NCBI GenBank assembly: GCA_001858525.1
Contig: LAPX01000004.1
Span: forward strand, 372,001-436,000
Reading direction: 5' to 3'
Length of the DNA: 64,000 nucleotides
DNA from: Vampirovibrio chlorellavorus
GTDB taxonomy: Bacteria; Cyanobacteriota; Vampirovibrionia; Vampirovibrionales; Vampirovibrionaceae
Notes under the pieces: model-generated
Told to the model about the DNA's origin: nothing
The model's database searches: none
Seen by the model: only the letters and a program-made list of their open reading frames with translations
Position numbers and translations under genes: made by a program
Shown here: positions 41,667-45,855 of the stretch, piece by piece
How positions within the stretch are numbered: the first letter of the stretch is position 1
Layout: each line of letters begins with the position of its first letter

Positions 41667-41819
41667 CAAACTCATACCCCTCATGGTGACAAAAGACGGC
41701 TCTTCGTCACAGGGTAAAATCTTCGGTTTTACTTCCCATGCCTGCCAGTCCGCTTGAAGCGCAAGTCGAAAAATGGTTTGATAAGGCAAAATTCCCCAAC
41801 GCACAGGATGAAACTCCCC

Positions 41820-42662
41820 ATGTCCAATCCCCTCAAATCCCAATTCATCGTTATTGCTGGCCCTTGCATCCTTGAAAATAACCGGGGCGAGGTCAATTTT
41901 GAGACAGCCCGTCAACTCAAAGCCATCATGGCCCAGTTCCCCGAAGTCAAGTTTTACTTTAAAAGCTCCTATGACAAGGCCAATCGCTCCTCCATCAACT
42001 CCTACCGAGGCCCGGGACTGGAAGAAGGTCTTCAAATTCTGAAAGAAATCAAGGAAAGCGTGGGTGTCTCCATCCTGACTGATGTCCATTGGCCCCATGA
42101 GGTGGCCCCCGTGGCTGAAGTCGTTGACATGATGCAGATTCCGGCCTTTTTATGCCGTCAAACCGATTTATTGCTGGAGGCAGGCAAGACCTCCATCCCG
42201 GTAAACATCAAAAAAGGGCAGTTTTTAGCGCCGCTGGATATTCGCCACGCCGCCCAAAAAGTAAAGAGCATGGGCAATGAGCAAGTCTACATTACCGAAC
42301 GAGGCAGCACCTTTGGCTACAACAATTTGGTAGTCGATATGCGGGCCATCCCAATGGTGCAATCCCTGGACTTGCCCATTATTTTAGATGCCACGCACAG
42401 CGTGCAGCTTCCCGGCGGGGCGGGAGAGACCACCGGGGGTAATCGGGAATACGCCCCCTTATTAGCAAAAGCCGCCGTGGCGGTAGGCTGTAACGGTTTA
42501 TTCTTTGAAACCCACCCCCAGCCTGAAAAAGGACTCAGTGACGCCAGCAACATGCTGCCCTTGCATTGGGTGGAACCCATGCTGCAAACCTGCATGAAAA
42601 TACGGGCTTTGGTCCAGCAGGAGACCCCTTACACCCTCACTGAAGCGCTGCAAGAAGTTTAA
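41820..42662 (+). CDS. kdsA: 3-deoxy-8-phosphooctulonate synthase (Kdo-8-P synthase)
   Basis: Condenses phosphoenolpyruvate with arabinose-5-phosphate to make Kdo-8-phosphate for the LPS inner core. 280 residues. Landmarks: IAGPCILEN, FYFKSSYDKANRSSINSYRG, DVHWPHEV and LDATHSVQLPGG. ATG 41820 has AGGA ten bases upstream; ATG 41808 is possible. Divergent from dprA. Its presence argues for an outer membrane. A decayed repeat element (copy B) starts right after the stop. Confidence 0.96.
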   Translation: MSNPLKSQFIVIAGPCILENNRGEVNFETARQLKAIMAQFPEVKFYFKSSYDKANRSSINSYRGPGLEEGLQILKEIKESVGVSILTDVHWPHEVAPVAEVVDMMQIPAFLCRQTDLLLEAGKTSIPVNIKKGQFLAPLDIRHAAQKVKSMGNEQVYITERGSTFGYNNLVVDMRAIPMVQSLDLPIILDATHSVQLPGGAGETTGGNREYAPLLAKAAVAVGCNGLFFETHPQPEKGLSDASNMLPLHWVEPMLQTCMKIRALVQQETPYTLTEALQEV

Positions 42663-42879: not shown

Positions 42880-43460
42880 TCAAAGCCAGGTTTCGATCGC
42901 CAGCAGGAGCTCCCTTAAGGTCCGATCCAGCATTTCGATCGCCGTGGGCCCTTTTACGCCTCTCCCCGATCGAAATGTCTACGCTAAAAAGCCTTTCACC
43001 AGACCCGATCGCCAAAACAGCCATACTGATCCACTGAAAAGCCCGCCACAGGATCACAATCCGCAATATTCGGGATCAATTCGTAATAAATACCGCTACT
43101 TTACACACCCTGATCTGTTGAAAACCTGTTGAAGCGATCGATTGAAGAAGTGATCAATCGCTGTTCAAAACCCAGATCTGTCAGAAACTTTCAACAACCT
43201 AAACAGGATCTCGACAAGTTTTCAACAACCCAAGAATCAGTCATATCAAACCTTTCACGGAGTTTTCTACAGGTTTTAGGTTACTCTAAGTACGATGATG
43301 GATCTAATTTATAAAAAACGATCAAGATCAGTGTCGATCAAAACTTCCCTTTGGAACGGCTTGTAAAAAGATCGCGGCATTGGCTTGAAGATCGCTACCG
43401 CAAATGTGTACTCTATAGTTGAATGAGTAAACGAAATGGACAGTAAGGAGATCCCGGATC
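42880..43460. other. oriC: Probable chromosomal replication origin (oriC)
   Basis: A gene-free stretch next to dnaN and recF. It holds DnaA-box-like nonamers: TTTTCAACA at 43219-43227 and, inverted, at 43116-43124; CTTTCAACA at 43188-43196; TTTTCTACA at 43263-43271; and CTTTACACA at 43099-43107. An AT-rich stretch (43305-43320) beside the last box could be the unwinding element. I count 21 GATC sites from 42895 to 43460, about ten times chance. Gene direction changes here from mainly leftward to mainly rightward. dnaA itself is not adjacent. The other part of the 42663-43460 gap is repeat copy B and about 130 bases with nothing clear. Confidence 0.75.
43414..43419 (+). promoter_or_regulatory. 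Candidate -10 box of dnaN
   Basis: TATAGT about 42 bases before the dnaN ATG. No convincing -35 box at the usual distance. AAGGAG at 43445-43450 is the dnaN ribosome site, and two GATC sites lie between it and the ATG. Confidence 0.35.
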
Positions 43461-44588
43461 ATGAAATTTGCCGTTCAACGTGAAGATATCCACCAGGCTG
43501 TAGCCGCCGTGCAACGGGCCACTGCCACCCGCGTCATCCAGCCTATTCTGTCCAATATTCTCATTGAAAGCGTCGACCCAGAGACCCTGAAACTCTCGGC
43601 CACCGATCTGGATTTTGGCATTCAGACCACTATTTCCGCCAAAGTGCTGGAAGAAGGTCGTACCACGTTATCGGCCAAAAAATTGGCCGAGATCATTAGC
43701 AAACTGCCCACTGGGCGTGAAATTGAGTTTGAAATCGAAGAGGCCGTGCAAACAGCCCGCATTCAGTGCGGTACCGCCTTGTTTGATATGCGAACCCTCC
43801 CCGCTGACGAGTTTCCGCTGATTAAACAGATTGATGAGCAAGGCTATCTGGAAGTGGATGGCAAGGCCTTTATTCGGGCCATCAATCAAACCGCCTTTGC
43901 CGCTGCCAGCTACGATGCCAACAACGTGTTGGGCGGGGTATTTTTCCAGCTGAATGAAAATGGACTGGAAATGGCCGCCACCGATGGGTCTCGTTTGGCC
44001 CGGCGGATTGAAACGGTCTCTGAAGGCGGAATGACCCCTCAAATGAACGTATCTGCGATTATTCCGGCCAAAGCCTTGCAAGAGTTCCTGAAGCTATGCT
44101 CTTCCGATATCAGCGCCCAACCAGTCCGGTTGGCCATTCAGGAAGGGCAAATTGCCTTCCGTACGCCCCGTTTTTATGTGCTGTCTCGTTTGCTGGATGG
44201 GCAGTACCCCAAGTACAACCAGCTGATTCCCGCTGAAAATAAAATTGTGGCCTTTGCCAACAAGAAAGCCTTCATCGATTCCCTGGAGCGCACGGCTGTT
44301 ATGGCCAATGAGCGCACCCATATCGTGAAACTCTCTCTGGACAAGAATAATATGAGTTTGGCCGCTCAAACCCCGGATGTGGGCGACTCCAAGGATACCC
44401 TGGAAGTGTTGTATGACGGCGATGCCCTGAATATCGCCTTCAACTACAAATACGTGATCGATGCCCTGAAGGTCATTGAGTCGGATGATGTGCGCATGGA
44501 AACCAATGGCCCGCTGTCACCCACCATCTTCCGGGGCAAGGAAGAAAATGGCTACCTGTGTCTGGTCATGCCGGTACAGGTCAAATAA
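43461..44588 (+). CDS. dnaN: DNA polymerase III beta sliding clamp
   Basis: Ring-shaped processivity clamp for DNA polymerase III. 375 residues with three clamp-fold domains. Landmarks are the opening MKFAVQREDIHQAV, LPADEFPLI, EMAATDGSRLARR and the C-terminal YLCLVMPVQVK. AAGGAG lies ten bases before the ATG. It is the first gene to the right of the putative origin and is followed by recF after a short hairpin. Confidence 0.97.
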   Translation: MKFAVQREDIHQAVAAVQRATATRVIQPILSNILIESVDPETLKLSATDLDFGIQTTISAKVLEEGRTTLSAKKLAEIISKLPTGREIEFEIEEAVQTARIQCGTALFDMRTLPADEFPLIKQIDEQGYLEVDGKAFIRAINQTAFAAASYDANNVLGGVFFQLNENGLEMAATDGSRLARRIETVSEGGMTPQMNVSAIIPAKALQEFLKLCSSDISAQPVRLAIQEGQIAFRTPRFYVLSRLLDGQYPKYNQLIPAENKIVAFANKKAFIDSLERTAVMANERTHIVKLSLDKNNMSLAAQTPDVGDSKDTLEVLYDGDALNIAFNYKYVIDALKVIESDDVRMETNGPLSPTIFRGKEENGYLCLVMPVQVK

Positions 44589-44637: not shown

Positions 44638-45855
44638 ATGCGCGTCCAAACCCTACACCTGGTCAATTTTCGGAATTATTCGGAACTCAGCGTGACCTTC
44701 TCCCCCCGCAAAAATATTTTTCTGGGGAATAATGGGCAAGGGAAAACCAACCTGCTGGAGGCCCTGTATTTTCTGAGCAATGCCCGATCTCACCGCACCA
44801 GTAGCGATCGGGAGTTGATACGCACCGGCCAACCCTTTGCCACCATTCAGGCCCAGTTGGCCAATCATCATTACGAAGGCCGACTACAGGCCGAAGTGCA
44901 AATCAAGCTGGATGATGAGCGGCTGAAGACTATTTTTAAAATCAATGCCAGCCCCTTGCGCAGCCGATCGGAAATGCTCGGTCATTTGCCCACTGTGTCC
45001 TTTTTCTTGCCGGATTTGTTGTTATTGCGGGGCACCCCGGAAGATCGGCGCCGTTGGCTGGATGCAGCCATTGTGCAGTATGATAAGCGGCACCTGATTT
45101 ATCTGGCGGAGTTCCAGAAGGTGCGTCAGCAAAAAAACAGGTTGCTCAAAAGCCCGCCGGAGCAAATTTCCAGAGAGCATCTCAGTGCCTGGAATGTTCA
45201 GTTGGCGGCCACAGCGGCGAAAGTGATTGCTTCCCGGCAACAGTATTTGGCCATGATTGAGGACTTGGTAGCCTTGGCTTACCTGGAATTGAGCGATGCC
45301 CGGGAAGCATTGACCGTGCGCTATAAGAGCGCTGTGCTAGAGGAGACATCCCTTAAGGAGCCCGTGGAAAAAGGCTTACCCGATGTCTCGGTGATTGAAG
45401 CCGGTTTGGCTCAGTTACTGGCCCAGCGTATGCCGGAAGAATTGCGTCGAGGCACTTGCCTGGTGGGCCCCCACCGGGATGATATTTACTTTTATCTGGA
45501 TGGCATGCCTGCCGATGCCTATGGCAGCCAGGGGCAACAACGTAGCATTGTATTGGCTTTAAAACTGACCGAATTAAAGTGCCTGACTGCCAAATTGCAG
45601 GAACCACCCGTCTTGCTTCTGGATGACGTTATGGCCGAGCTGGATCCGGATCGTCAACGCTTGCTGGTGGAGCATATTCATCCGGAAAGTCAGGTTTTTA
45701 TAACCACTACCCACCCCACCTCCTCCTGGCAAACCTTGCTGGAGCGGGAAACGGGGAGCCATTCGGATGCAGACGCTGATTTGGCTGCATTTACCGTCAC
45801 GCAGGGCACCGTGTCTCAGCGTCGGCTTTCTGCGCAACTGGAGGTTTCCCCATGA
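44638..45855 (+). CDS. recF: DNA replication and repair protein RecF
   Basis: SMC-like ATPase that helps load RecA at gaps. 405 residues. The opening LHLVNFRNYSELSVTF is followed by Walker A LGNNGQGKTN, then LLLLRGTPEDRRRWLDAAI, the signature YGSQGQQRSIVLALKL and Walker B LLLDDVMAELDPDRQ. The C-terminus extends about 30 residues past the usual end. The stop overlaps the start of the dciA-like gene by four bases. Confidence 0.96.
   Translation: MRVQTLHLVNFRNYSELSVTFSPRKNIFLGNNGQGKTNLLEALYFLSNARSHRTSSDRELIRTGQPFATIQAQLANHHYEGRLQAEVQIKLDDERLKTIFKINASPLRSRSEMLGHLPTVSFFLPDLLLLRGTPEDRRRWLDAAIVQYDKRHLIYLAEFQKVRQQKNRLLKSPPEQISREHLSAWNVQLAATAAKVIASRQQYLAMIEDLVALAYLELSDAREALTVRYKSAVLEETSLKEPVEKGLPDVSVIEAGLAQLLAQRMPEELRRGTCLVGPHRDDIYFYLDGMPADAYGSQGQQRSIVLALKLTELKCLTAKLQEPPVLLLDDVMAELDPDRQRLLVEHIHPESQVFITTTHPTSSWQTLLERETGSHSDADADLAAFTVTQGTVSQRRLSAQLEVSP

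Follow-up and report, generated by a model that had tools for sequence, protein, structure and literature searches.

The gap that directly precedes dnaN in Vampirovibrio chlorellavorus, a predatory, non-photosynthetic cyanobacterium, is a chromosomal origin of replication, probably of DnaA type, and it carries 21 GATC sites within 568 bases (positions 42893 to 43460 of the window, that is, of the whole 64-kb stretch of DNA analysed; C23:414894-415460), the highest density met in our genome sample and one that recurs in all five genomes of the genus compared. Textbooks tie DNA methylation to the timing of replication through origin sequestration by Dam and SeqA; for the Vampirovibrio array we lean, if only slightly, towards a Dam-marked origin whose hemimethylated state would delay re-initiation and would be read by something other than SeqA, or by the DnaA/DNA complex itself. 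An equally dense and conserved array in another phylum, with Dam and without SeqA, amounts to an independent experiment of evolution; it indicates that selection can act on a GATC array where SeqA is absent, and it gives a concrete footing to the search for a different reader of hemimethylation; cultured V. chlorellavorus strains as well as several uncultured relatives exist for comparison.

Position and parts of the origin

The genome comprises 3,030,228 bases in 28 contigs, the window belonging to contig C23. Of the 20 10-kb bins that precede 415 kb on this contig, 19 have negative GC skew and one stands at 0.001; of the 20 that follow, 18 have positive skew and two are slightly negative (-0.004 and -0.013). 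The cumulative minimum falls at C23:417011, about 1.6-2.1 kb from the array. The gene for the DNA polymerase III sliding clamp, dnaN (43461-44588, forward strand; TIGR00663, E 9.8e-91), lies directly downstream. As the skew switches at the array and dnaN follows at once, the gap is the chromosomal origin, which upholds both the putative origin of the initial annotation and its placement in the gap before dnaN. According to the open reading frame listing, a forward-strand frame at 44638-45855, which we take by eye to be recF-like, follows dnaN, and another at 41754-42662 (forward strand), presumably KdsA-like as judged by eye, lies upstream of the origin; dnaA itself is 272 kb away.

The DnaA-box-like nonamers also mentioned in that annotation do exist, though only as one-mismatch boxes, no perfect TTWTNCACA being found in the array region. 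One of them, TTTTCTACA (43263-43271, forward strand), has one mismatch to this consensus and is identical in all five genomes of the genus. The 9-mer TTTTCAACA occurs twice: on the reverse strand at 43116-43124, where it has one mismatch to the consensus, abuts a GATC at 43112 that is invariant in the genus and conforms to TTTTNWACA across the five genomes, and on the forward strand at 43219-43227, where all five genomes have TTTTSAACA. A further box-like 9-mer, TTTTGAACA (43162-43170, reverse strand), is present in the V. chlorellavorus genome (G000) and in G002 and G004. The 50-mer of lowest GC content (43268-43317; 14 of 50 bases) includes the invariant GATC at 43301 and is a candidate unwinding element.

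GATCT-led 13-mers at 43112 (GATCTGTTGAAAA), 43175, 43207 and 43301 (GATCTAATTTATA) resemble the three of E. coli oriC, GATCTGTTGAAAA for instance being comparable with GATCTGTTCTATT. Weak or partial matches to the DnaA family occur besides the true dnaA (G000:C1:24420-24830, C2:12272-13185 and C3:86030-86674) and perhaps lie on plasmids of the strain, two plasmids having been reported for a V. chlorellavorus strain (PMC4451040).

Density and conservation of the GATC sites

The direct count of sites starting within the 568 bases is exactly 21, in agreement with the figure of about 21 first given, and the accompanying estimate of about ten times the random expectation is recovered as a 6- to 10-fold excess: 2.2 sites are expected at the mean density of the window (245 GATC in 64 kb), and 2,000 dinucleotide-preserving shuffles of 42893-43460 gave a mean of 3.56 (sd 1.70) and a maximum of 10. 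The runner-up among palindromic tetramers in this segment, TCGA, occurs six times, none coming near the GATC count, and the densest other 568-bp segments of the 64 kb hold seven GATC. The genome at large was sampled over 1.1 Mb of its 3.03 Mb, in 55 stretches of 20 kb, with a background of 3.45 GATC per kb; the next-best 568-bp segments of this sample hold 13, 11, 10 and 9, so that the array is the sample maximum and a similar density was not encountered at many other intergenic regions. The array was split across two of the 20-kb stretches (17 GATC in one), and its count of 21 is taken from a contiguous 400 kb. The second densest segment of the sample, near 115.7 kb of contig C14 (L241:15716-16283; 13 GATC in 568 bp), has GATC-bearing repeats at a spacing of 27 bases.

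Conservation was assessed in five genomes of the genus (G000-G004), the dnaN identities of which range from 85 to 100 per cent. The 700 bp before dnaN contain 22, 20, 23, 21 and 22 GATC in G000 to G004, respectively. In the five-genome alignment, 10 of the 16 GATC in the core of the array (core at 43028-43393; sites at 43028, 43052, 43074, 43112, 43136, 43152, 43175, 43301, 43326 and 43390) occupy the same columns without change in every genome, compared with 96 of 438 for all tetramers, and GATC columns are invariant in 48 of 64 cases against 188 of 377 for the other columns (Fisher p 0.0002). G001 has 11 of the 16 sites in common with G000, where the identity of the remaining columns predicts 2.2, and G003 has 10, where it predicts 3.3; each also has four GATC sites not shared with G000, and since these new sites offset the lost ones, the density is held while the positions turn over. 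When 21 tetramer classes are ranked by their retention in the two most diverged genomes, GATC comes first (0.66; median 0.33), closely followed by AAAA and ACAG, which are parts of the box-like 9-mers. The flanking bases of 110 GATC sites are mixed and form no longer motif, so that the recogniser would see GATC alone, as a methylation target would predict. These comparisons support the view that the GATC sites of the array are maintained by selection.

The sites show no notable helical phasing at 10.5 bp (vector strength 0.20-0.34), and the left block, although evenly spaced in G000 (CV 0.30, matched by 1 in 3,000 random placements), has a CV of 0.46 in G003 and 0.87 in G001; evenness is strong in G000, G002 and G004 and absent in G001, and was dropped as evidence on the latter account. 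The dnaA promoter was likewise considered as a second sequestered site: the 560 bp that precede the dnaA match hold 8, 5, 5, 2 and 1 GATC in the five genomes, the 8 belonging to V. chlorellavorus itself (L083) and the 5 to each of two close relatives. The dnaA promoter is GATC-rich, as in E. coli, in three of the five genomes and not in the other two; the enrichment not being conserved, it was set aside as a second sequestered site.

The Dam methyltransferase and the distribution of dense origins

A clear Dam orthologue, of the sort that the initial annotation had proposed looking for, is the one D12/Dam protein encoded in the genome (C6:16030-16821). It scores 298 bits on TIGR00571 (curated cut-off 114.85), matches the D12-class domain PF02086 at E 3e-69 and has E. 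coli Dam as its best solved relatives (E 1.9e-86), while staying below the cut-off of the stricter E. coli equivalog NF008152 (341 vs 441 bits). The catalytic DPPY is retained, as are the positions aligned with E. coli K9, Y119, N120, L122, R124, P134, R137 and Y138, which we take to have roles in GATC contact; position 137 is K in G001 and G003. Of the 29 ORFs listed in 19.85 kb, 7 neighbours of dam were scanned against Pfam, which revealed ALDH and MarC and no restriction-enzyme or nuclease family; the neighbours are metabolic or uncharacterised, the other ORFs having been judged by eye. On its sequence and surroundings, the enzyme is an orphan (solitary) methyltransferase of E. coli type. 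It was recovered properly in four of the genus genomes and as a partial match (E 1.9e-4) in G002, a genome that is 76% complete.

In a maximum-likelihood tree of 50 Dam-family rows, the proteins of Vampirovibrio and of G006, G009, G010 and G014 are united with E. coli Dam (100/98) and stand apart from the 35 other rows sampled from the phylum, and 6 low-scoring rows form a further clade. The Vampirovibrio protein has its best database matches on one plasmid of Alicyclobacillus (57.5 per cent) and one of Legionella, and among enterobacterial Dam proteins (about 51 per cent), phage matches being lower than these; transfer may have brought the E. coli-type clade into the order. In sister genera whose Dam falls in this clade, the 700 bp before dnaN contain 7 (G006), 5 (G009), 2 (G010) and 3 (G014) GATC. 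Their origins being ordinary, Dam does not require a dense origin, and the array counts as a Vampirovibrio trait; in G009 and G007 the skew minimum adjoins dnaN, so the low counts sit at true origins. The comparison within families f1-f3 left out G002 (23 GATC, partial Dam match) and G016 (dnaN cut off) and counted as strong in Dam both G007 and G013, whose proteins are placed outside the E. coli-like clade.

A second set of GATC-dense origins was found in f4, another family of the class and presumably Obscuribacterales (a guess on our part), where 42 genomes have a dnaN match and 30 loci were counted. The counts are 13-15 in all five members of genus g33 that were counted, 4, 9, 17 and 18 in g40, 13 in G219, 10 in G212 and 1-8 in the others. 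In G047 (L264), the 15 GATC at dnaN compare with a mean of 2.17 and a next-best count of 8 in 100 kb of its own genome, and the skew changes sign there. The f4 dense origins are apparently independent of the Vampirovibrio array. The 21 f4 genomes with a Dam-family match of at least 260 bits average 9.4 GATC, compared with 3.2 in the 9 without (rank test p 0.0004; by genus p 0.028, both tests ignoring shared ancestry), and origins with at least 9 GATC number 10 of 21 in the former and 0 of 9 in the latter, the 260-bit divide having been set after a gap between 206 and 264 bits was seen; G033 and G042 (3 and 2 GATC, with weaker Dam-family matches) were left out of the rank test. The f4 proteins belong to a different clade from the E. 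coli-type enzymes, some differing at position 119, 134 or 137, and their specificity for GATC is not certain. At L276 and L280 (G210 and G208) and at L264, up to 18 GATC per 700 bp were seen in tight clusters about 120-210 bases before dnaN.

Elsewhere counts are low: 21 further f6 loci have 0-2 GATC (L151 being counted without start-codon anchoring), and f6 and most other families have 0-3 at the dnaN-proximal locus. The 14, 13 and 10 GATC upstream of dnaN in G071, G084 and G075 were dropped as further dense origins, given their high backgrounds (8.8-10.2 per kb) and equal peaks nearby; among the sampled photosynthetic relatives, these three, where this was checked, show no excess over their own background. 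Among open-licence papers, a literature search turned up none that deals with GATC-dense origins in Cyanobacteriota or Vampirovibrio.

Possible hemimethylation at the origin and rival readings

In E. coli, SeqA holds the hemimethylated oriC and dnaA promoter and keeps DnaA off them (PMC5145175, PMC10073500, PMC4786541), and SeqA is described as co-conserved with Dam, with GATC enrichment near the origin limited to the gammaproteobacterial Dam clade (PMC4786541). The Vampirovibrio origin resembles oriC in its probable DnaA type, in having a solitary Dam of E. coli type, in its GATC density (21 compared with a maximum of 19 per 568 bp in 2 kb of E. coli sequence, where the 232-bp oriC holds 11) and in the GATC that adjoin the DnaA sites, here box-like 9-mers, and lie in the AT-rich part. 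Unlike E. coli, Vampirovibrio belongs to a different phylum, has its origin before dnaN and far from dnaA rather than between mnmG and mioC, has DnaA-box-like 9-mers of the form TTTTNWACA, and lacks SeqA and MutH. Profile searches with a positive E. coli control detected SeqA in none of the 289 genomes of the class, V. chlorellavorus included, a highly diverged SeqA-like fold being of a kind that would escape them, and a narrower profile search found none in 19 relatives; MutH was found in none of the five genus genomes and in one of 19 relatives. Any reader of hemimethylation would therefore belong to neither family. The suggestion of a methylation-based timing or strand mark thus held in part: the origin, the Dam enzyme, the evidently selected sites and an organism outside the gammaproteobacteria (its nearest named relatives are Vampirovibrio MAGs) agree with it, while a literal SeqA system and a strand mark serving MutH-directed mismatch repair find no support.

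In the reading towards which we lean, the array would be a selected target set for the cell's own orphan Dam. Firing of the origin and passage of the fork would leave every GATC hemimethylated at once, and the high local number of sites would make this state strongest at the origin and the last to be removed there; re-assembly of DnaA and re-initiation would be held off until Dam catches up. The reader would be a protein other than SeqA or the DnaA/DNA complex itself, unless the methyl groups act directly on DnaA assembly and melting. This suggests that methylation-based control of replication may have evolved separately in Vampirovibrio, with a non-SeqA reader. The broader proposal, that control of initiation by hemimethylated GATC arose apart from the SeqA system at least twice in Vampirovibrionia (in Vampirovibrio with an E. 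coli-type Dam and in f4 with a different Dam-family enzyme) through an undescribed non-SeqA reader, is held only tentatively, and we would sooner bet against it than for it.

The absence of SeqA would also suit a scheme in which N6-methyladenine in the array acts directly on the melting of the duplex or on its affinity for DnaA, such that full methylation lets an origin fire well and hemimethylation makes it fire badly, with no sequestration protein. It is further favoured by the invariant GATC that abuts the 9-mer at 43116, by the one inside the lowest-GC 50-mer and by the resemblance of the GATCT-led 13-mers at 43112 and 43301 to the three of E. coli oriC; a melting effect, however, should not call for so many sites away from boxes and AT-rich DNA, where most of the 21 are found, and the array extends to 42895, which is some 370 bases distant from the AT-rich stretch. 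We hold this scheme to be unlikely, if the strongest of the rivals. Less likely still, the GATC sites might be low-affinity DnaA sites at which methylation is irrelevant, AGATCT-type boxes for ATP-DnaA being known sites of this kind (PMC10225481, which also mentions CtrA). The interspersion of GATC with DnaA-box-like 9-mers and two conserved GATCTGT elements fit such a role, but AGATCT accounts for 2 of 110 sites, the six-base contexts spread over 10 classes with no flanking preference beyond GATC, and in f4 origins with 9 or more GATC are confined to genomes in which the Dam-family gene is a strong one (10 of 21 vs 0 of 9). That the array reaches the ribosome-binding site of dnaN, with GATC at 43450 and 43457, would accord with a promoter or 5' leader region for Dam-dependent control of dnaN transcription; its extent of 566 bases, the evenly spaced left block 250-570 bases upstream of dnaN and the coincidence with the skew switch point make this quite improbable.

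Two further readings have very little left to recommend them. Hemimethylated GATC is the strand mark of E. coli repair, but a cluster of mismatch repair targets protecting the origin is largely refuted by the distribution of MutH, found in 0 of 5 genus genomes and 1 of 19 relatives. Chance, base composition, HIP1-type repeats or a by-product of restriction-modification are refuted for the genus: the genomes of HIP1 cyanobacteria are indeed rich in GATC throughout (G071, G075 and G084 have a background of 8.8-10.2 per kb), whereas the background is 3.45 per kb here, none of the 21 sites lies in the HIP1 octamer GCGATCGC, the shuffles never exceeded 10 and the sites are conserved. With no MutH and no nuclease among the scanned neighbours of dam, the MutH and restriction-modification readings were rejected for the genus.

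Returning to the Dam-marked origin, two other systems invite comparison. Caulobacter has an orphan adenine methyltransferase, CcrM (GANTC), tied to the replication cycle, and a CtrA-controlled origin; it shares with Vampirovibrio an orphan adenine methyltransferase outside the gammaproteobacteria and the coupling to the replication cycle proposed here, and differs in site, enzyme family and binder. Within the phylum, M.Ssp6803III (slr1803) is a solitary Dam-like GATC adenine methyltransferase reported as essential for viability (PMC6604393); the Vampirovibrio enzyme is likewise a solitary Dam type, with predicted GATC methylation, but groups with the E. coli-type enzymes and away from the sampled cyanobacterial Dam-family proteins, and its GATC are gathered at the origin, unlike HIP1, which is dispersed genome-wide (PMC6604393). 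In the one relative with a MutH family member (G013:C213:7963-9114, L139), a MutH/Sau3AI-like match stands right behind that relative's own Dam-family gene and there is almost no GATC around the origin and dnaN; the pair has the look of a restriction-modification system directed at GATC, accompanied by avoidance of the site.
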